In this document: positions 2,418-23,754 of the stretch, in pieces | Position numbering within the stretch: the stretch's first letter is position 1 | Layout: every line of letters begins with the position of its first letter | From: Chitinophagales bacterium | Lineage (GTDB): Bacteria; Bacteroidota; Bacteroidia; Chitinophagales; UBA2359 | NCBI GenBank assembly: GCA_020629335.1 | Contig: JAHDDN010000022.1 | Coordinates: 1 to 23,754 of the forward strand | Length of the DNA stretch: 23,754 nucleotides | Reading direction: 5' to 3' | Made by a program: the position numbers and the translations under genes | Notes under the pieces: generated by a model | Databases searched by the model: none | Told to the model about the DNA's origin: nothing | Seen by the model: only the letters and a program-made list of their open reading frames with translations

Positions 2418-3626
2418 TTACCAGTTAATCAGTTCCCCCTTAAACGCCTGCTGCAACAAACAATTAAACAAATCCTCCGCCTTCACTAAACTCTCCTGCG
2501 CCTGCAACTTCTGCGCCTCTATCGATTGCACTCGATTGGCGAATTGGGTTTGGAGGTATATTGAAGGTAGAGGTATAATTAGGTTTCTTAACTTTACTTT
2601 TGATATATTTAGCATAGAACCACTAGTCCCTGTTGCAACTTTTCTTAAATTATGTCTAAAACCATCATGTGATAGCAAAAATTTAACATAATAGTTCTTA
2701 AGTAAGTTGTTTTTCAAATGCAATTTCCATAATTTATCAGGTAAAAATAAGTTATCATAATCCTTATCTACAATTGCTACTGCTCCTACCATTTCCCTAG
2801 TATTAGCACGTGAAAATAACAAGTCTCCTTGTTTAGGTTTTATTAGACCTTTTATCGAAGGGTCAACATTAACAACTTTGTATTCTTCAGATAAAAAAAC
2901 TCCAGAAGTTACAGCACTTATTTTTAAAACGCCTAACTCATTGTCTTTCATTTTTCTTACCTCGCCACCTAAGCTAATTCCTCCTATAATATCATCAACA
3001 CAATTTTGAAATTTAACTTTCTCCCACCCCTTAGGATTAATAACAGGGTCCCCAAACATATCCAAAAACAGACTTTGGGTCAACTCATCATATTTAACGA
3101 TGAGGGCTTTCGTTTTTTGGCGGTAGTCATCGGCTGCATCCAAGATGGCAGCGATCTTTTTTTGTTGGGGTAATGGGGGGAGGAGGATTTTGAATTTTTT
3201 AACATTAGATGCAGATAAATTGGGTTGAGAGGAGCCATTATCAGACTTTTCTATGAGTCTTTTTACCTTGTTACTTTTTAAGTAATTATTCAAATAATTT
3301 ACATCAAGACTCTCCTTTACCCTCAAAATAACCAATGAAGAAGCTATTGCTCCCTTAGTACCTTCTGAGTTTAAGGCATGTTTTCCTAATGATCCTCTTA
3401 AACAGAAAAGAATATCATTATGTTGAAGTTTCCCTCCTCTAATTAAATTATATTTATCTTCTGATATAAAATTAAGTCCATCTTTTTTTATTTTGTAATT
3501 ATCAAGATTACCAGCATTTATGAAAGGGATACCTTCTTCTATAAATGCTGAGCGAGACGGGTAATTCTTACCTCTGTCACCATTTTCAAATTGACAAACA
3601 CTTCCTAATTCAACTTCTTTAATCAT
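2418..3626 (-). CDS. hsdS: Type I restriction-modification specificity subunit HsdS
   Basis: 402 residues, full-length for HsdS. Two target recognition domains are visible. TRD1 is about residues 1-150. A central conserved helix region follows (LPPLPQQKKIAAILDAADD ... LFLDMFGDP, about 150-195). TRD2 is about 198-350. The distal conserved helix region (about 352-402) runs from LPSIYLQTQFANRV to LLQQAFKGEL. The protein gives DNA sequence specificity to an HsdM methylase / HsdR nuclease complex. Neither partner gene is in the window: the next gene downstream is Rpn-like, and upstream are repeats and an unrelated secreted protein. It is therefore an orphan locally, or a spare specificity gene for a system elsewhere. 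Start ATG 3626 sits at the very edge of a 103-bp tandem repeat. No truncation or frameshift is seen. Confidence 0.93.
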   Translation of the reverse strand: MIKEVELGSVCQFENGDRGKNYPSRSAFIEEGIPFINAGNLDNYKIKKDGLNFISEDKYNLIRGGKLQHNDILFCLRGSLGKHALNSEGTKGAIASSLVILRVKESLDVNYLNNYLKSNKVKRLIEKSDNGSSQPNLSASNVKKFKILLPPLPQQKKIAAILDAADDYRQKTKALIVKYDELTQSLFLDMFGDPVINPKGWEKVKFQNCVDDIIGGISLGGEVRKMKDNELGVLKISAVTSGVFLSEEYKVVNVDPSIKGLIKPKQGDLLFSRANTREMVGAVAIVDKDYDNLFLPDKLWKLHLKNNLLKNYYVKFLLSHDGFRHNLRKVATGTSGSMLNISKVKLRNLIIPLPSIYLQTQFANRVQSIEAQKLQAQESLVKAEDLFNCLLQQAFKGELINW

Positions 3627-3876
3627 CCCAACATTTATTTTAAAGCAAAAATTGCTGCTGTTTATTTATTCATTTATAGGGTTAGTTCTAACTTTCCAAA
3701 CGTTCCAACTTTTTCAACGTTCTTACCTTCCCAACATTTATTTTAAAGCAAAAATTGCTGCTGTTTATTTATTCATTTATAGGGTTAGTTCTAACTTTCC
3801 AAACGTTCCAACTTTTTCAACGTTCTTACCTTCCCAACATTTATTTTAAAGCAAAAATTGCTGCTGTTTATTTATT
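3627..3876. repeat. 103-bp tandem repeat at the hsdS start
   Basis: Two complete 103-bp units (3627-3729, 3730-3832) are followed by the first 44 bases of a third (3833-3876). The copies look identical to the eye. Each unit holds AGCAAAAATTGCT (short hairpin), GTTAGTTCTAAC (inverted repeat) and a TTCCAAACGTTCCAA tract with AACGTT palindromes. The array begins immediately upstream of the hsdS start codon, so it is a multiplied hsdS leader. The open frame across it on the plus strand is low-complexity and not credible as a gene. Confidence 0.93.
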
Positions 3877-5535: not shown

Positions 5536-5590
5536 AATATTAATTACAAATTGATTTTGTATTGGGATTAAGGCTATTATAAAAATAGAT

Positions 5591-5696
5591 GTAGGGTGCG
5601 GACCTATGTGTCCGCCCTAAAAAATAGCTGTAGGGTGCGGACCTATGTGTCCGCCCTAAAAAATAGCTGTAGGGTGCGGACCTATGTGTCCGCCCT
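5591..5696. repeat. 39-bp tandem hairpin repeat upstream of the YdeP-like gene
   Basis: Units start at 5591, 5630 and 5669; the third is cut short (2.7 copies). Each contains GCGGAC-CTATGT-GTCCGC, a stem with a six-base loop, extended by a bulged outer GGG/CCC stem. The last stem ends about 31 bp before the start codon at 5728, so the transcript leader could carry three hairpins in a row. The same motif, as GGCGCATCTATGTGTGCGCC, occurs in the loop of the element at 12111-12184. Confidence 0.93.
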
Positions 5697-12384: not shown

Positions 12385-13794
12385 ATGAAACCAATATACC
12401 TCTCAATATTAATCGCATTCCTCTCCTGCTCCCTATTCGCCCAAACCATCACCATAGGCGAAACCACCCTCACCGAACACGAAGTCATCACAGGACTGCG
12501 CATTCCTTGGGAAATATTATGGGGACCCGATGACCACATCTGGGGCACCGAAAGAAGAGGACGTATATTTAGAGTAGACCCAGAAAGCGGCACCTTCAAC
12601 TATATCCTCAATTTAGAAGAAAATGTACTCAGTGCAAGTAGTGTGGAATGTGGTATGCTAGGTATGGCCCTTCATCCAAATTTTGAAAATAACCCCCTAC
12701 TATATGTAGTCTATACCTATCTACCTGAGGGCAGTTTTATCCCCATTCTAAAACTATCCAGCTTTGAATGGGACGGAAGCAATCTAATAAACGAAAATAC
12801 ACTACTAGACAATATAAGCAGTGCCGAAACCCTCGTCGGCTCACGACTCATTATATCAGCTGATGAAAAAATTATAATGACCGTCGGACAAGCTAATAGT
12901 GCTTCGAATGCACAAAATCTGGAAGAGTTACAAGGCAAGATTTTACGCATCAATCTAGACGGCAGCCTACCTGATGATAACCCTTTCGATGATTCTTACA
13001 TCTATTCTATCGGACATCGCAACCAACAAGGTTTAGCACTTGGCCCAAACGATCAAATATATAGCACTGAGCACGGCGCTCAATTAGGAGATGAACTCAA
13101 CCTCATCCAAGCAGCCGCTAATTATGGCTGGCCAGATGTGGAAGGCTTTTGTGATAATGATATCGAAATAGAATATTGTGATCAAAATAATATTACCGAA
13201 CCTCTATTAGAATGGTCTCCTTGCATTGCCTTGAATGATATAACCTACTATAACCACCCTGCCATACCCGAATTACAAAACTCTTTTCTAATGGCCGTTT
13301 TGGGAGGTACTGGCGGATATGAAGGAATCCTTCACCTTCCTTTCAATGAAGAGGGAAGCGAGATAAGCAAAGGAGAAACCTATTTTACTAACTATGGTAG
13401 GCTCCGTGATATTTGCATCAATCCCCATAATGGAGCCATCTATTTTGCCACTAACGGGAATACCTACCCAGGCACTGGCCCTAATCGAATCATAGAATAT
13501 AGCAACTTAAGCTACCAAACAGATGCTATCCCTTCTGCTAATATAGCAGAAACACCCCAATTAGAGATTTATCCAAATCCTATTAGTTCGCAAAGTCAAA
13601 TCGACTTCTCTGAACATTTCATAGGAAAAACCTTCGAAATCATTAGTTTTAATGGTGAAATCGTTATAAAAGGAGAAATCAAACAAACATCCGTATCTTT
13701 GCAGTCACTTGCACTTCCAAGTGGATCTTATTATATAAAAGCTGAATCAACTAAAGGCTTCCTTACCAGAAGCTTTATAGTTCCAATGAAATAA
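12385..13794 (+). CDS. Secreted PQQ-type glucose/sorbosone dehydrogenase-like protein with T9SS sorting domain, paralog 1
   Basis: 469 residues: signal peptide (about 1-20, ending LFAQ), glucose/sorbosone dehydrogenase beta-propeller (about 25-375), and a type IX secretion type A sorting domain (393-469, from LEIYPNPISS). Propeller signatures are IPWEILWGPDDHIWGTERRGR, CGMLGMALHPNF, YSIGHRNQQGLALGPN, STEHGAQLGDELNLI, ANYGWPDVEG and YGRLRDICINPHNGAIYFATNG. In soluble PQQ glucose dehydrogenase the motif H-x-S/G-G-R carries the catalytic base. Here the matching stretch is ETLVGSRL, with L150 instead of His, whereas paralog 2 has IHDGSRL. Oxidation of sugars may therefore be lost or altered. It is probably exported through the outer membrane and surface-anchored or released. 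The next gene starts 20 bp after its stop, so the two form one operon. Confidence 0.93.
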   Translation: MKPIYLSILIAFLSCSLFAQTITIGETTLTEHEVITGLRIPWEILWGPDDHIWGTERRGRIFRVDPESGTFNYILNLEENVLSASSVECGMLGMALHPNFENNPLLYVVYTYLPEGSFIPILKLSSFEWDGSNLINENTLLDNISSAETLVGSRLIISADEKIIMTVGQANSASNAQNLEELQGKILRINLDGSLPDDNPFDDSYIYSIGHRNQQGLALGPNDQIYSTEHGAQLGDELNLIQAAANYGWPDVEGFCDNDIEIEYCDQNNITEPLLEWSPCIALNDITYYNHPAIPELQNSFLMAVLGGTGGYEGILHLPFNEEGSEISKGETYFTNYGRLRDICINPHNGAIYFATNGNTYPGTGPNRIIEYSNLSYQTDAIPSANIAETPQLEIYPNPISSQSQIDFSEHFIGKTFEIISFNGEIVIKGEIKQTSVSLQSLALPSGSYYIKAESTKGFLTRSFIVPMK

Positions 13795-13814
13795 TAAACA
13801 GAACATAAAATACT

Positions 13815-15998
13815 ATGAAAAATAAATACCTTATTCAATGGCTATCCTTAGCCTGTTTTGCACTACTCTCTCTAAATACTCAGGCACAATGCCCTGGAGG
13901 AGAAATATTAGTAACCGTTGAAATAGTACCCGATAATTATCCAGATGAAATAGCTTGGAATTTAGCCTATGCTGGTGGAGACAATATTCTGTCTGGGACT
14001 TCACAAGGAGTTACTGCCTGCGTACTATCAGGTACCTGCCTTATCTTTACTATCTCCGATACCTATGGAGATGGCATTTGCTGTACTGGAGGAAATGGAT
14101 CTTATACCCTATATTTTGATGGTCAAGAAGTCGCCACAGGTGGCGATTATGGATATGGAGAAAGTTTATCATTTAATTGCCCTCCAGGATCCATCTGTGG
14201 CGCAGCTATAGAAGCCGAAGCTGGAGGAAGTTATAATGCCAGTGATAATACTTGGTTTTCCTTTTCACCAGAAGAAAACGGGCTTTATAGCATCAGTTCT
14301 TGTGATTTAGGTTCCTTCTGTGAACCAGCACTATGGGTATATGACCTCTGCGATGGACTCGAATGGAATGATACAGCTAACTCTACCATCTATCACACAA
14401 CAGAAGGTTGTGACGCACTGGGTTTTCATGTTGAGGCCGAATTGGAAGGGGGTACAACTTACTACATCCGTGTCGGCGAACTACAAGATGAATGTGATGC
14501 CACCCAAGATTGGACTATTAACTATGAAGGAGAAATCACAGGCTGCACAGACCCTAACGCTTGCTCTTTTAATCCATTAGCGAGTGTTAATGATGAATCG
14601 CTTTGTTTCTATCTGCCTGATGAAGAATGTGTGCAATATTTGCCAAGTGTCACTATTGGTAACACCATTCTTAAGGAAAATGAAATCGCTACTGGCTTAG
14701 ATGTCCCCTGGGAAATCCTTTGGGGACCTGATGACTATATCTGGATGACAGAAAAAGTCGGCAGAATTTCCAGACTCGATCCAGAAACAGGTAATATAAC
14801 TATCGTTCTTGAACTAGATAATGTTTCTTCTGGAAGTGAAAGAGGTATGCTTGGTATGGCCTTACACCCTGACTTCGATAATTCGCCATTAGTGTATGTT
14901 GTTTACACTTATAACAGTGGTGGACTCAAAGAAAGATTGTCTTCTTTTGAATGGGATGGAGATGAACTTGATAATGAAACTGTTTTACTTGATAATATAC
15001 CTGCGGCAAATATTCATGATGGCTCTCGTCTTTTAATCACTGAAGATGAAAAAATCTTAATGACAACAGGAGATGCTGCAAATGATGTGAGTTCACAAAA
15101 TATGAATAGCCTTAGTGGTAAATTATTGCGTATTAATTTAGATGGTTCTATTCCTGACGATAATCCTTTCGAAGATAGCTACATATACACCTATGGCCAC
15201 CGTAATGCACAAGGCTTAACCTTCGGCCCAAATGGCGACATCTATAGCTCCGAACATGGACAAAATAGCTCTGATGAATTTAATATCATTGAAGAAGGAC
15301 GTAATTATGGCTGGCCTAATGTTCAAGGAGCCTGTAATACTGGTGCCGAAAATGCCTTCTGTGACCAGAATAATGTCAAAGAACCATTGATAGAATGGAC
15401 CCCTTGTCCAGCAGTCAATGGTATTGAATATTATACACACCCTGCTATTCCAGAATTCCAAGACAAAATGCTAATGGCCGTCTTAGGTGGACTTAGTGGT
15501 GGTTTAGAACGTATCTCTGTTTTAGAATTTAATGAAGACGGTTCAGAAATCATTGGCGAAGAAGAATACTTTGATAACTATGGTCGACTAAGAGATCTTT
15601 GTGTCAATCCACACAATGGTGCGGTATATTTCGCAACTAATGGACCTAGCTATCCAAGTTCAGGTCCTAACTCAATTATCGAATATCGTAACTATGATTG
15701 GAATCCCAACGATACAAGTGGTCAGGATACAACAGGTGTAAATATACAAGCCTTAAAATTGAAGCAATCACTCAATATCTTCCCTAATCCTATGGGTTCA
15801 AGTGGTTACTTTAGCTTTTCTGATAGCTTCATCGGTGGCCAATTCCAAATCTTTTCTTACGAAGGTAAGTTAATCATGGATCGTAAAATACAAGATAACT
15901 TAACTCGCATCAATACGAATCATTTGCCAAGTGGTGCTTACTATATTAAAGCATTTAGTAGTGAAGGAAAAATATCCAAATCATTTATCATTGAGTAA
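13815..15998 (+). CDS. Secreted PQQ-type glucose/sorbosone dehydrogenase with extra N-terminal domains and T9SS sorting domain, paralog 2
   Basis: 727 residues. Order: signal peptide (about 1-24); a Cys-rich beta domain with ISDTYGDGICCTGGNGSY; a PPC-like beta domain (about 130-235, NTWFSFSPEENGLYSI ... TTYYIRVGEL); a GCTDPNACSFNP linker motif at 243, often repeated in Bacteroidota surface proteins; a glucose/sorbosone dehydrogenase propeller (about 275-645) with VPWEILWGPDD, ERGMLGMALHPDF, IHDGSRL (H401, expected catalytic base), GHRNAQGLTFGPNG and YGRLRDLCVNPHNGAVYFATNG; and a type A sorting domain (653-727, LNIFPNPMGS). The propeller and tail are clearly paralogous to the preceding gene; the two N-terminal domains are unique to this copy. 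It likely oxidises a sugar at the cell surface with PQQ and calcium; the substrate cannot be told from sequence. Confidence 0.94.
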   Translation: MKNKYLIQWLSLACFALLSLNTQAQCPGGEILVTVEIVPDNYPDEIAWNLAYAGGDNILSGTSQGVTACVLSGTCLIFTISDTYGDGICCTGGNGSYTLYFDGQEVATGGDYGYGESLSFNCPPGSICGAAIEAEAGGSYNASDNTWFSFSPEENGLYSISSCDLGSFCEPALWVYDLCDGLEWNDTANSTIYHTTEGCDALGFHVEAELEGGTTYYIRVGELQDECDATQDWTINYEGEITGCTDPNACSFNPLASVNDESLCFYLPDEECVQYLPSVTIGNTILKENEIATGLDVPWEILWGPDDYIWMTEKVGRISRLDPETGNITIVLELDNVSSGSERGMLGMALHPDFDNSPLVYVVYTYNSGGLKERLSSFEWDGDELDNETVLLDNIPAANIHDGSRLLITEDEKILMTTGDAANDVSSQNMNSLSGKLLRINLDGSIPDDNPFEDSYIYTYGHRNAQGLTFGPNGDIYSSEHGQNSSDEFNIIEEGRNYGWPNVQGACNTGAENAFCDQNNVKEPLIEWTPCPAVNGIEYYTHPAIPEFQDKMLMAVLGGLSGGLERISVLEFNEDGSEIIGEEEYFDNYGRLRDLCVNPHNGAVYFATNGPSYPSSGPNSIIEYRNYDWNPNDTSGQDTTGVNIQALKLKQSLNIFPNPMGSSGYFSFSDSFIGGQFQIFSYEGKLIMDRKIQDNLTRINTNHLPSGAYYIKAFSSEGKISKSFIIE

Positions 15999-19159: not shown

Positions 19160-20095
19160 ATGAGAGACTCAATCTTCTACTTATTGTTGGTATTACTCAT
19201 CGCCTGGATTATTGCAGGCTCATGGCTTCACAGAAATCACTACTGTGGAGATGAAGATACAACAACTAAGGTCACAGAAAAAGCAGCAGTCGCAACTACC
19301 CCTCCGGTAAAGGAAGTTGCCAAAAAAGCTGCCCTTGGTGCATGGCTTGTCAATGATGGCAATGCATTCAAAACTACTTCTAATGATCACTTTAGATTCA
19401 ACAAATCTAAATTTGTTCATTTAACTCCAAGAAGCAAAAGCTTAGATGCCTCTGTTCAAAAAACAGCAGCATATTTAAAAAAGAATCCTAAAAGATCTTT
19501 AAAAATTACAGGTTACTACCGAGAAAATGAAAAGAACGAAAGTATCTTTCCTAACCTTGGTTTAGCCAGAGCTAATAATGTAAAAAGTCAGTTGACAGCA
19601 GCAGGTGTAGCTGGTAGCCAATTAGATACTGATTCTAAAGTATTAAGCAATGAAGACTGGTATAAAGGAAATATACTCGAGAAAGGAGTTGATTTCAGCT
19701 TTGCAGATGCTGGAGCGAATACAGACCGTTTAGCAGCTATCAAGAAAAGACTATTTGGCAAGCCTATCATCCTTTATTTTGGTACCAATCAAAGTTCTAT
19801 CAGTTTGACTTCTCAACAACGTAAGGATTTCTCTGATTTGATCTACTATCTTGATAATGTCAATACTAGTAGATTAGATATTGAAGGTCATACTGATAAT
19901 GTAGGTAATAGAGGAGGTAATGTCAAATTATCTAAAGATAGAGCCAAATTCGCTCAAAATTACCTGAATAAGAATGGCGGCATTTCTACTAATAGAACTA
20001 AAGTGAATGGATTCGGTCCAGATAAACCTTTAGGTTCTAATGATACCGCTGAAGGTAAAGCTAAGAATCGTAGAGTAGAAGTTACCCTACGATAA
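19160..20095 (+). CDS. Membrane-anchored protein with two OmpA-like domains
   Basis: 311 residues. The N-terminal hydrophobic helix (about 4-20, IFYLLLVLLIAWIIAGSW) has no clear cleavage site, so it is probably an inner-membrane anchor. A first OmpA-like domain (about 68-170: HFRFNKSKF ... ITGYYRENE ... LGLARANNV) is followed by a canonical C-terminal OmpA domain (about 200-311: ILYFGTNQSSI ... IEGHTDNVGN ... LSKDRAKFAQNYL ... GFGPDKPL ... NRRVEVTL). In the second, D246 and R261 are 15 apart, exactly as the peptidoglycan-binding pair of E. coli OmpA (D271/R286). In the first, the Asp is replaced by R121 although R137 remains, so it probably does not bind peptidoglycan the same way. It lies 76 bp upstream of the giant repeat protein on the same strand, with no clear terminator between. 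Confidence 0.92.
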   Translation: MRDSIFYLLLVLLIAWIIAGSWLHRNHYCGDEDTTTKVTEKAAVATTPPVKEVAKKAALGAWLVNDGNAFKTTSNDHFRFNKSKFVHLTPRSKSLDASVQKTAAYLKKNPKRSLKITGYYRENEKNESIFPNLGLARANNVKSQLTAAGVAGSQLDTDSKVLSNEDWYKGNILEKGVDFSFADAGANTDRLAAIKKRLFGKPIILYFGTNQSSISLTSQQRKDFSDLIYYLDNVNTSRLDIEGHTDNVGNRGGNVKLSKDRAKFAQNYLNKNGGISTNRTKVNGFGPDKPLGSNDTAEGKAKNRRVEVTLR

Positions 20096-20171: not shown

Positions 20172-23100
20172 ATGTTTTGGTGTTTTTGGTGGCCTTTTAT
20201 CTGGTTATGTATAGCAGCCTTTCTTGGCTGGCTACTAGCCTGGAGATGGTTTAGAAGCCTTTTTGCTGGTCAAGCAGCAGGAGAGGCAAACAAATATAAC
20301 AGCCTGAAGGCTGATTATGATAGCAATCAATTAAAATTCACTAATCTCGAAAAAGCGAATCTCGCATTAGCTAACGAAAAAAATCAATTACTCTCTTCAG
20401 GAGATGATTGGAAAATAAAATTCGAGAACAGAGATAAAGAATACATTGGATTAGAAGGGCAGTATAAAGAATTAGCTGCTCAATTAGATCAATGGAAAGC
20501 AAAATATGCAAAATTAGAGTCTGACTATGACACTTCTGTTGTCAAGTTATATGAACAAGTTAAGAAAATTGATGGCGAAAAAGTGGCTGTAGTAGCTGAA
20601 AAAGATGCTGTTGATGATGCAAAAGTGAAAGCGTGGACCAACAGCTTAACGAAGCTTAGAGATGGCTATACGCAGGAAACAACGCCTAAGAACTTAAAAG
20701 AACTAAACTTAACCATTCAGAACCTTGGTTCTAAATTAGCTTCTAAGTCTAAAATGCCTAAAGAGGTCATTAAAGAAGTAGAGGTCGTTAAGGAAGTAAT
20801 CGATCAAAAGGGATTAGACGCTTGGAAATTAAAATTTGAAAACAGAGATCAAGACTATACTGGCCTTAGTGCTAAATTTAAAGACATATCTTCAGAATTG
20901 GACGGTTGGAAACAGAAACACGATCAACGTGTGGCTGATAATAATGCTTCTGTACAAAAACTATATGAAGCAGTTAAGTTAATTGACTCGAAAAAAGAAG
21001 CGGTTAATCCTGAATTTGAACTAGTTAACAAAGAAAATGTAAATGCTTGGAATAACAACTTAAGTAGCTTACGAAAAACTTATACAGAAGCCAACTCTCC
21101 TGATAAGTTAAAAGAACTGAATGAAGTTATTCAAAACTTAACTAACAAATTAGCGGCTAAAGCGAATGATGAGTGGAAAGCGAAATACGCTAAGTTAGAG
21201 AGTGATTATAATAATGCTACTTCAGAATTATATGAAGCAGTAAAAATCATGGAGAACCAACAGGAAACTGTGGTGGAAGATTTAGAGAAAATTGACAAAG
21301 CTAAATTCAACAATTGGAATAGTAATTTAGCAGCTGTTTTAGAACAAGATGAACAAAGAGATGTCCCTCAGAAAATGAAGGACTTGAATTTAAGTATCCA
21401 AAGTTTTACTACCAAGTTAGCTGCTTCTGCCGACGATCAGTGGAAAGCGAAATACTTAAACCTTGATGCTGAACATAAGGCTATGAAAGCGGATTATAAT
21501 GCTTCTGTTACAGAGCTTTATACGGCGGTCAAGAAAATGGACGATCAAAAAGAAGCTGTTAGCGAAGAAGCTGAAAAAATCAATACGGAGAAAGCTAATA
21601 GCTGGAAGAGTAGCTTAGCGAATATATTGAAAAGCGATGAGCAACGTAAGGTGCCTGGACAAATGAAAGAGCTGAACCTTTCTATCCAAAACCTTTCTCA
21701 CAAATTAGCTGCAACGGCAACTGACGAATGGAAAGCCAAGTATATCAAGTTGGAAGGCGATCATCAAACACTTCAGAAAAACTATAATACTTTAGAAGAG
21801 GATTATGATTCACTAGAAACTGGTTATAATGCTTCCGTTTCTGATCTCTACATTGCTGTGAAGAAAATGGAAGATCAAAAAGAAGGGGTTGTGGCTGATT
21901 TGGAAAAAGTAAATACTGATAAAGCTAACAACTGGAATAATGGCCTAAAAGAAGTTCTTAAGAAAGACGAAGCAAGAGAGACACCTAAGCAAATGAAAGC
22001 GCTTAATCTTTCTATTCAAACACTCTCTAATAAATTAGCGGCTAAAGCGAATGATGAGTGGATGAATAAATACCTTAAGTTAGAGCCTGATTATTCTGCA
22101 CTTGTTACTAAGTATAATGGCTTAGTGGCGAATTACAATAAATTAGAAGAGGATTATAATGATTTAGAATCTGGTTATAATGCCTCTATATCCGATCTTT
22201 ACACTGCTGTGAAGAAAATGGACGATCAAAAAGAGCAGGTTAATGAAGCAGAAAGTGTCAATACTGAAAAAGCCAATGGCTGGAAGAATAGCTTAGCCAA
22301 TATCTTAAGAAGTGATGAAAAACGTAAGGTGCCAGGACAAATGAAGGCGCTTAACTTAAGCATCCAAAACCTCTCTAATAAATTAGCTGCCAATGCGAAT
22401 GATGAGTGGAAACCTAAATACATTAAATTAGATGCAGACTATAATGCACTAAGTGCTCAATTCAAAGAATTACAAACGAGCTATAATACGCTGGATGCGA
22501 ATTATAAGAAATTGGATGCAGACTATAAGGTCTTAGACACTGACTACAAAACAATGGATGCGGATTATAATGCATCTGTTTCTGATCTCTATGCTGCGGT
22601 GAAGAAGATGGACGATCAAAAAGAAGCTGTCAACGAAGCTGAAACGGTGAATAAAGAGAAGGCTAATAACTGGAGAACTGGTTTAGCTAATGTCTTGAGA
22701 AATGATGAAAAGCGTAAAGCGCCTAAGCAAATCAAAGCGCTTAACTTAAGTATCCAAAATCTTTCTGCTAAATTAGCGGCTAATGCAAATGACGAATGGA
22801 AACCGAAGTTTATTAAACGAGATGAAGAATTTAATGCACTTAATATCCAATTTAAAGATTTGCAATCTAATTATAACACATTAGATGCTAGCTATAAGAA
22901 ATTAGATGCGGATTATAAAGCAATGGATACAGATTATAATGCTTCTATTTCTGATCTCTATGCTGCGGTGAAAAAGATGGACGATCAAAAAGAAGCTGTC
23001 AACGAGGCTGAAACAGTGAATAAAGAGAAGGCTAATAACTGGAGAACTGGTTTAGCTAATGTCTTGAGAAATGATGAAAAACGTAAAGCTCCTCAACAAA

Positions 23101-23754
23101 TGAAGGCGCTTAACTTAAGCATCCAAAACCTTTCTGCTAAATTAGCGGCTAATGCGAATGACGAATGGAAACCGAAGTACATTCAATTAGAGGAGCAGTT
23201 CAAGGAATTGAAAACGAACTATAATACTTTAGATTCTAATTATAAAAAACTGGATGCAGACTATAAAGTATTAGATACCGATTACAGAAAAATGGATGCC
23301 GATTATAACGCATCTGTTTCCGATCTCTATGCTGCGGTGAAGAAGATGGACGATCAAAAAGAAGCTGTCAACGAAGCTGAAACGGTGAATAAAGAGAAGG
23401 CTAATAACTGGAGAACTGGTTTAGCTAATGTCTTGAGAAATGATGAAAAACGTAAAGCTCCTCAACAAATGAAGGCGCTTAACTTAAGCATCCAAAACCT
23501 TTCTGCTAAATTAGCGGCTAATGCGAATGACGAATGGAAACCGAAGTACATTCAGTTAGATCTTAACTATAAAGAGTTGAATAGCAAATATGGCAACTTA
23601 GAGCAATCTAATGCTAATCTCCAAAAATCAAATGCAGAGTGGAAACTTAAGTTTGAGAATAGAGATAAAGACTATAATGGGCTTAATATCAAATTTGGCG
23701 ATCTTACGAAGCAATTAGCGGAGTGGAAACTCAAGTATGAAAATAGAGATAAAG
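20172..23754 (+). CDS. Giant membrane-anchored heptad-repeat (coiled-coil) protein, 3'-truncated by window end
   Basis: ATG 20172 opens a frame of 1194 complete codons with no stop before the window edge. The N-terminus is a Trp-rich membrane helix (MFWCFWWPFIWLCIAAFLGW), then WRWFRS; everything after is soluble, highly charged and helical. Module A is 28 residues, W-K-x-K-F-E-N-R-D-x-D-Y-x-G-L and so on, seen at W80, W218 and W1157, with a fourth beginning at W1185. Module B starts at W108, W246, W335, W424, W520, W630, W746, W876 and W999, and partially at W1122. Its core includes YNASVSDLYAAVKKMDDQ, EKANNW and MKALNLSIQNLSAKLAA, preceded by 1-7 heptads of Y-x-x-L-D-x-x. I do not recognise the family. 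It could be a periplasmic or cell-envelope fibre or tether. The Arg residues after the helix would favour a cytoplasmic tail by the positive-inside rule, so topology is open. Probably in an operon with the OmpA-like gene. Confidence 0.9.
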   Translation, partial: MFWCFWWPFIWLCIAAFLGWLLAWRWFRSLFAGQAAGEANKYNSLKADYDSNQLKFTNLEKANLALANEKNQLLSSGDDWKIKFENRDKEYIGLEGQYKELAAQLDQWKAKYAKLESDYDTSVVKLYEQVKKIDGEKVAVVAEKDAVDDAKVKAWTNSLTKLRDGYTQETTPKNLKELNLTIQNLGSKLASKSKMPKEVIKEVEVVKEVIDQKGLDAWKLKFENRDQDYTGLSAKFKDISSELDGWKQKHDQRVADNNASVQKLYEAVKLIDSKKEAVNPEFELVNKENVNAWNNNLSSLRKTYTEANSPDKLKELNEVIQNLTNKLAAKANDEWKAKYAKLESDYNNATSELYEAVKIMENQQETVVEDLEKIDKAKFNNWNSNLAAVLEQDEQRDVPQKMKDLNLSIQSFTTKLAASADDQWKAKYLNLDAEHKAMKADYNASVTELYTAVKKMDDQKEAVSEEAEKINTEKANSWKSSLANILKSDEQRKVPGQMKELNLSIQNLSHKLAATATDEWKAKYIKLEGDHQTLQKNYNTLEEDYDSLETGYNASVSDLYIAVKKMEDQKEGVVADLEKVNTDKANNWNNGLKEVLKKDEARETPKQMKALNLSIQTLSNKLAAKANDEWMNKYLKLEPDYSALVTKYNGLVANYNKLEEDYNDLESGYNASISDLYTAVKKMDDQKEQVNEAESVNTEKANGWKNSLANILRSDEKRKVPGQMKALNLSIQNLSNKLAANANDEWKPKYIKLDADYNALSAQFKELQTSYNTLDANYKKLDADYKVLDTDYKTMDADYNASVSDLYAAVKKMDDQKEAVNEAETVNKEKANNWRTGLANVLRNDEKRKAPKQIKALNLSIQNLSAKLAANANDEWKPKFIKRDEEFNALNIQFKDLQSNYNTLDASYKKLDADYKAMDTDYNASISDLYAAVKKMDDQKEAVNEAETVNKEKANNWRTGLANVLRNDEKRKAPQQMKALNLSIQNLSAKLAANANDEWKPKYIQLEEQFKELKTNYNTLDSNYKKLDADYKVLDTDYRKMDADYNASVSDLYAAVKKMDDQKEAVNEAETVNKEKANNWRTGLANVLRNDEKRKAPQQMKALNLSIQNLSAKLAANANDEWKPKYIQLDLNYKELNSKYGNLEQSNANLQKSNAEWKLKFENRDKDYNGLNIKFGDLTKQLAEWKLKYENRDK
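20493..23534 (+). repeat. Tandem protein-coding repeat array (module B, 9 units)
   Basis: Unit boundaries at the Trp codon (nt): 20493, 20907, 21174, 21441, 21729, 22059, 22407, 22797, 23166, ending before 23535. From the second unit on, lengths are 89, 89, 96, 110, 116, 130, 123 and 123 residues. The first unit carries an extra Lys/Glu/Val-rich insert (KEVIKEVEVVKEV) and is followed by module A. The early units are diverged; the last three are almost identical, including a 170-base stretch with no difference that I can find (23016-23185 against 23385-23554). Confidence 0.9.

Follow-up and report, generated by a model that had tools for sequence, protein, structure and literature searches.

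We analysed a 23,754-nucleotide stretch of DNA from a Chitinophagales bacterium (hereafter, the window), the last gene of which, P0001, encodes a large repeat protein. We found that this protein is the second member of a gene pair present in three orders of Bacteroidota, in which a transmembrane (TM) OmpA-like protein is paired with a second TM protein whose spacer varies in length. We place the repeat protein in this family because its neighbouring gene, its N-terminal TM segment and its spacer modules match those of the other members. With a probability of roughly 45%, we think that it is a long-spacer form of a membrane-anchored cytoplasmic tether whose helix-hairpin-helix (HhH) end may sit on the nucleoid.

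The gene pair and its relatives

The repeat protein matched no Pfam or NCBIfam model above cut-off and nothing in the protein collection searched. A sequence-only reading of the window had assigned it to no named family, a view that its gene neighbourhood now overturns. The gene directly upstream, which ends at 20095 and is followed by the repeat protein gene at 20172, encodes an OmpA-like protein (P0002) that matches PF00691 at 85.8 bits against a cut-off of 27.2. Solved relatives of this domain include YiaD, Pal, MotB and MotY, and P0002 has 32 relatives besides itself. An alignment that joined 19 of them to P0002 served as the query against named genomes. Of 563 confirmed loci we kept 80, and nine of these (L001-L008 and L011) match most of the query, L003 from residue 64. 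In all nine, the next gene downstream on the same strand encodes a TM protein. HhH-like sequence could be recognized by eye in eight of them, and the ninth, L003, leaves its contig.

We then have the evidence of order-wide surveys for the OmpA-like gene, run at E 1e-40. Matches were found in 29 of 248 genomes of the order of a Saprospiraceae metagenome-assembled genome, in 12 of 196 of the Flavobacterium order and in 12 of 194 of the Spirosoma order. From these, 30 of 53, 12 of 12 and 14 of 14 matches, respectively, were taken as loci; four of these 56 repeat loci already described (L082 is L001, L093 is L003, L159 is L002 and L174 is L007), and 55 were read, L177 being unreadable. A pair was counted if a same-strand TM frame of at least 90 amino acids (aa) began no more than 450 nt downstream. 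Such a frame was present at 49 of the 55 loci (25/30, 12/12 and 12/13 by order), and 28 of the 31 complete downstream frames carry an HhH motif, those without it being L092, L097 and L179. As a control, we took the other 71 of the 80 kept loci, the majority of which share no more than the OmpA domain with the query. By the same criteria, 20 of the 70 that were read have a downstream TM frame and none has the HhH motif.

Across the family, the spacer between the TM segment and the HhH motif runs from about 58 to 1060 residues, an approximately 18-fold range that is more in keeping with a tether than with a conserved ruler. The spacers of L005 (4211-6859) and L001 (4773-8159) consist of dozens of IKEVEVIKEVPVEV-type repeats with PEVK-like composition. 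In a literature search limited to open-licence papers, we found no description of the gene pair.

Modules, heptad steps and predicted structure

From its N-terminus, the repeat protein consists of a TM segment, a module A, B unit 1, a short IKEV-type segment, a second copy of module A, B units 2-9 and two further A modules. Its gene lies in frame +1 with no stop before the window end; the C-terminus is outside the window. The features of the pair are as follows, with the basis of each assignment in brackets.

19160..20095, +, partner: TM-anchored OmpA-like protein (P0002), 311 aa (PF00691 at 2.8e-24, hydrophobic N-terminus)
19778..20071, +, OmpA-like domain of the partner, peptidoglycan-binding type (PF00691, residues 207-304)
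20172-23753, +, TM-anchored repeat protein gene (P0001) (open reading frame from the ATG at 20172, 1194 aa seen)
20175..20243, +, predicted N-terminal TM segment of the repeat protein (translation; charge pattern of relatives)
20406..20489, +, module A copy 1, 28 aa (spacing; relatives' profile match near residue 91)
20493..20744, +, B unit 1 (W108-S191), 1 heptad (Trp spacing, heptad count)
20745..20819, +, short IKEV-type segment KEVIKEVEVVKEV (translation; long counterpart in L121, L001 and L005)
20820..20903, +, module A copy 2 (spacing, profile)
20907..21158, +, B unit 2, 1 heptad (Trp spacing, heptad count)
21174..21425, +, B unit 3, 1 heptad (Trp spacing, heptad count)
21441..21713, +, B unit 4, 2 heptads (Trp spacing, heptad count)
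21729..22043, +, B unit 5, 4 heptads (Trp spacing, heptad count, AlphaFold2)
22059..22391, +, B unit 6, 5 heptads, core shorter by one residue (Trp spacing, heptad count)
22407..22781, +, B unit 7, 7 heptads (Trp spacing, heptad count, AlphaFold2)
22797..23150, +, B unit 8, 6 heptads, 21-base gap relative to unit 7 (spacing, DNA alignment)
23166..23519, +, B unit 9, 6 heptads, a different 21-base gap (spacing, DNA alignment)
23637..23720, +, module A copy 3 (spacing, profile)
23721..23754, +, module A copy 4, cut by the window end (spacing)

Most measurements of the sequence-only reading held. Module A is indeed 28 residues long, with spacings of 28 at W80-108, W218-246 and W1157-1185. The Trp residues of B units 2-9 and the one that follows lie at 246, 335, 424, 520, 630, 746, 876, 999 and 1122, which reproduces exactly the Trp-to-Trp distances it had given of 89, 89, 96, 110, 116, 130, 123 and 123 residues (267-390 bp). 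The B units it listed are real, but it missed unit 1, and there are nine in all. Its counts of the heptads ahead of the NASV heptad (1, 1, 2, 4, 5, 7, 6 and 6 for units 2-9) are likewise exact, except that the heptad of unit 2, HDQRVAD, is not of the Y-x-x-L-D type it had described; unit 1 also has one heptad. From the Trp to the L of LY, units 1-9 span 18, 18, 18, 25, 39, 46, 60, 53 and 53 residues (counted from W246 for unit 2), all of which are 4 modulo 7. After LY, units 1-5 have 65 residues and units 6-9 have 64, in agreement with the one-residue deletion that had been noticed in later units. In units 3-9, which have 38 heptads between them, Y occupies position a 31 times, F five times and H twice; position d holds L 26 times, S six times (the NAS heptad), M four times and A and R once each.

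Structure prediction, which the earlier reading had suggested as a check, was carried out by AlphaFold2 on window sequences alone, with units 7-8 in model 1 and unit 5 in model 2. The heptads through YNASVSDLY..AVKK are predicted to form one unbroken helix, followed by two short helices and then the next long helix. The long continuous helix covers residues 6-79 and 136-198 of model 1 and 4-54 of model 2. In model 1, the predicted local distance difference test score (pLDDT) is 71-88 in blocks of the heptad helix, 53-67 in the first core and below 50 at residues 201-264; in model 2, it is 64-81 in the heptad blocks and 54-78 in the blocks after the heptads. The period of hydrophobic residues peaks, modestly, at 3.52. 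The picture of a modular spacer, with helical linkers in heptad register and a near-fixed core, is thus borne out at moderate confidence. If summed end to end, the long helix parts would come to about 510 residues or 76 nm, a figure that is arithmetic on the models. No spectrin match was listed for the repeat protein in Pfam; the predicted unit has one long and two short helices, the packing of which is unsure.

Profile searches with the modules, also proposed by the earlier reading, did find relatives, but these are not seven-stepped. Units scoring above 40 bits with the B profile number six in L121, three each in L125 and L126 and one each in L124 and L129, a count that leaves out weaker stretches of 6-10 bits. 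All of them sit in the gene that follows the OmpA-like gene. In a B search that did not use the OmpA-like gene, 3 of 396 genomes of the order had hits, and all 14 hits fell in such downstream genes. The three B-bearing genomes belong to one family, 20 genomes of which were searched. Module B is therefore a rare spacer domain. Module A is also found near residue 91 of L122, L124 and L129. The B-unit linkers of the relatives are 18 or 21 residues long in L121 and 14 in L125 and L126; for L124 and L129, the linker is 14 by eye from the nearest Trp (our script took an earlier Trp and gave 63). These lengths differ by 3, 4 and 7, so exact seven-stepping is special to the window gene. In a tree of 23 B cores, window units 3-9 group together (99/95), and units 2-6 of L121 group with units of L125, L126, L124 and L129 (99/97). 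Eight of the 19 inner branches of this tree are open, and the long branch of unit 2 was flagged by the tool. Separate amplification of B units in separate lineages is apparently the simplest reading of these sequences.

We next consider how the steps arise. The linkers of units 7, 8 and 9 are separated in a DNA alignment by two different, clean 21-base gaps, the cores of these units are 94-97% identical in DNA, and Tandem Repeats Finder reported 21-, 42- and 369-bp repeats in this region. The gaps and repeats together indicate that heptads change as 21-bp units and that whole units duplicate. Assuming in-frame indel sizes uniform modulo 7, the chance that the five non-zero length changes between successive units 3-8 would all be multiples of seven is about 6e-5. 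Because gain or loss of a 21-bp repeat automatically yields multiples of seven, this figure does not demonstrate selection. The earlier reading had proposed that selection or duplication keeps the register, and the part given to selection was accordingly not upheld: slippage in 21-bp steps suffices and could be the source of the seven-stepping, and the linkers of the relatives depart from it.

A neutral origin of the heptad steps is possible, if on balance doubtful: 21-bp slippage and unequal exchange would produce them in passing, in a spacer whose length is little constrained and which has no ruler function. The 21- and 42-bp tandem repeats, the clean gaps, the apparently separate amplification in different lineages, the relatives' linkers of 14, 18 or 21 residues and the wide spacer range would all be expected if this were the case. 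The sequence within the units is nevertheless conserved in ways that this explanation does not predict. The ratio of nonsynonymous to synonymous substitution rates (dN/dS) among the cores of units 7-9 is 0.04-0.07, which indicates purifying selection, although the values for these units are distorted by repeat homogenisation. In the linkers of the same units, synonymous sites are saturated and yet dN is only 0.07-0.15. Together with the prevalence of Y and L at positions a and d, this low dN indicates that the helix itself is constrained.

HhH ends, predicted topology and possible function

If the repeat protein is a tether, its N-terminal TM segment would anchor it in the inner membrane with the body in the cytoplasm, and the A modules, B units and heptad linkers would build a rod that is largely helical. 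Beyond the window, the C-terminus very likely bears the HhH domain of the relatives, and this domain would hold DNA of the nucleoid or some other partner in the cytoplasm. The OmpA-like partner would face the periplasm and grip peptidoglycan, so that the pair could join wall, membrane and cytoplasmic cargo. The length of such a rod could change by duplication of whole B units, or by gain and loss of 21-bp heptads, each adding or removing about 1 nm of coiled coil, with helix register kept.

Several observations are consistent with this topology. Arg25 and Arg28 follow the TM segment of the repeat protein, which predicts a cytoplasmic C-terminus. Among the 49 pairs, the flank after the downstream TM segment is more positive than the one before it in 38, while the OmpA-like TM segments show the reverse charge order in 29; the reversed patterns suggest opposite topologies for the two proteins. 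A third gene whose product has an HhH but no TM segment is present at L116, L125, L126, L128 and L129, which makes it likely that the HhH end is cytoplasmic. As for the HhH itself, Pfam HHH_5 scored above cut-off in L008, L121 (three copies), L125 and the third-gene protein of L128, and the 13 C-terminal domains that were compared, which include those of L004 and L005, show 49-70% identity to the L121 domain. Seven of the 17 TM proteins longer than 400 aa (L128, L122, L127, L129, L116, L124 and L131) have a Lys-rich stretch before the HhH, with a net charge of +5 to +15 in 42 residues and 29-38% K/R.

The genes around these HhH ends have further features. The third gene (L001 8426-10558, L121 11844-14186, L125 4023-6062, L126 13129-15129, L128 5321-6748, L129 11458-13491, L124 1-1664) encodes a weakly HU-like N-terminus, IKEV/PEVK-like repeats and, if complete, a C-terminal HhH like that of the second gene, a likeness judged in part by eye. 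A fourth gene of 234-237 aa lies at L001 10592-11305, L121 11094-11807, L125 6122-6826, L126 12355-13059 and L129 10706-11416. The L001 copy, the only one scanned, has a proprotein-convertase P domain (PF01483) and no obvious export signal. A second C-terminal type, in which the HhH is followed by FFPGR..RD.W..QA in place of the GKW..L.K.QDELDGG ending, is found in L101, L104, L117, L123, L136, L140 and six Spirosoma-order loci (L170-L175).

A number of observations weigh against the tether. The window lacks the C-terminus of the repeat protein, and the count of 28 of 31 HhH-bearing frames rests on a short motif: HHH_5 is below cut-off in L001, L002, L011, L122 and the second gene of L128, and the Pfam scan did not list it for L004, L005 or the first gene of L007. 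The closest solved HhH relatives, the photosynthetic reaction-centre O chain (8.8e-6) and a complex I subunit (0.0065), are not DNA-binding, with DNA polymerase beta at only 0.29. Ten of the 17 long TM proteins have a net charge of -8 to +4 before the HhH, including L121, the closest B-unit relative, at +1. As to topology, 11 of 49 downstream TM segments do not fit a cytoplasmic C-terminus, and the flanks of the OmpA-like TM segments are equal in 11 of 49 and opposite to the expected order in nine. Four loci (L091, L103, L106 and L180) have the OmpA-like gene without a downstream partner, two more (L086 and L094) end at the contig, and relatives other than those with B modules were all found through the OmpA-like gene. 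Finally, confidence in the AlphaFold2 models is moderate (mean pLDDT 63 and 66, predicted TM-score (pTM) 0.48 and 0.27, for models 1 and 2), and their matches to solved structures are unspecific.

The same HhH relatives could suggest that the protein is a cytoplasmic membrane-anchored scaffold, in which the HhH docks a protein rather than DNA and the B units bind a partner, with the heptads spacing them. We consider this unlikely, though it has points in its favour. Among solved structures, the HhH comes closest to subunits of membrane complexes; the NCBIfam matches, none of which reaches its cut-off, take in the tails of NuoE, L21, S2 and PhaH; and the B core, in which W, LN and KLA columns are invariant, changes in length by no more than one residue while the linkers vary. 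The Lys-rich stretches before the HhH in seven of the 17 long proteins and the weakly HU-like N-terminus of the third gene point instead to nucleic acid.

It is highly improbable that the protein is a ComEA-like receptor that catches DNA for uptake with an HhH outside the inner membrane. Its order of TM segment, spacer and HhH would be that of ComEA, but the charges favour an inside C-terminus in 38 of 49 relatives, the third gene lacks a TM segment in five frames, and a scan at E 0.01 of seven relatives' proteins, five from second genes and two from third genes, listed no ComEA model (library content unchecked). An identity as SMC or Rad50 was rejected, as a TM segment replaces the N-terminal head and SMC_prok_B scored 41 bits versus a cut-off of 567. 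Its best stretch, residues 725-992, lies in coil, and an SMC-type C-terminal head would lie outside the window. No phasin model of Pfam or NCBIfam was listed for the repeat protein, and the PhaH matches of relatives are those below cut-off.

Returning to the tether, a broader and rather unlikely version would be that this widespread Bacteroidota pair physically links peptidoglycan, inner membrane and nucleoid, with register-keeping 21-bp steps changing its reach. Such a system would be comparable to eukaryotic envelope-to-chromatin linkers, its nucleoid end being the HhH plus, in some cases, the Lys-rich stretch and the HU-like third protein. If the tether reading is right, the cell could change the reach of a tether without breaking it, 21 bases at a time. 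One gene with units of one to seven heptads amounts to a natural experiment in spacer length, and the presence of the pair in three Bacteroidota orders offers a testable link between wall, membrane and cytoplasm.

Elsewhere in the window, a type I restriction specificity gene on the minus strand (2418-3626) has at its start an exact 103-bp tandem repeat (3626-3876, 2.4 copies, 100%), which could be a recombination or switching site. A 12-bp repeat of 7.7 copies (1508-1599) lies in the C-terminal part of a PDDEXK transposase/Rpn-type gene, and three copies of a 39-bp repeat (5581-5696) lie just ahead of an FdhF/YdeP-type oxidoreductase gene, partly within the listed frame. At 12385-15998, two glucose/sorbosone dehydrogenase genes lie in tandem; their products carry type IX secretion tails, which points to a Bacteroidota-like source.

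Comparison with known systems

ComEA has a TM segment, a linker and an HhH, and its linker is short; the order is like that proposed for the repeat protein, while the predicted topology is the opposite. The phasin PhaF, to our knowledge, has neither a TM segment nor an OmpA-like partner. In passages of PMC3574117, PhaF is described as an anchor, a coiled coil and a DNA-binding tail that join a cytoplasmic body to the nucleoid; it binds polyhydroxyalkanoate granules and is short, in contrast to the long, membrane-anchored window protein. SMC arms, in the part of PMC5344682 concerned with them, are long coiled coils with periodic length limits and heptad register, but SMC proteins have ATPase heads and a hinge where the window protein has an N-terminal TM segment.

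Coiled coils have been reviewed as spacers and rulers, with about 1 nm per heptad (section of PMC5082667). In Lpp+21, according to an excerpt of PMC8824477, a coiled-coil spacer longer by 21 residues alters an envelope distance; Lpp shares the coiled-coil spacer with the window protein but is a short outer-membrane lipoprotein. The cytoplasmic tails of chicken BG proteins contain many units of seven, sometimes eight, residues with coiled-coil potential (passages of PMC4046983), and the title of a 1990 paper cited there refers to a heptad region that varies in length. These units are vertebrate exons, and those passages describe no repeated core between them. The linkers of PadC phytochrome-diguanylate cyclases have lengths that differ by multiples of seven in 54% of PadCs, which has been read as coiled-coil register (passages of PMC9587094). 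PadC has one linker per protein, varying among homologs, whereas the window protein holds a graded series within itself. Such a graded heptad series between fixed-core copies in one protein, together with its family context, looks new.

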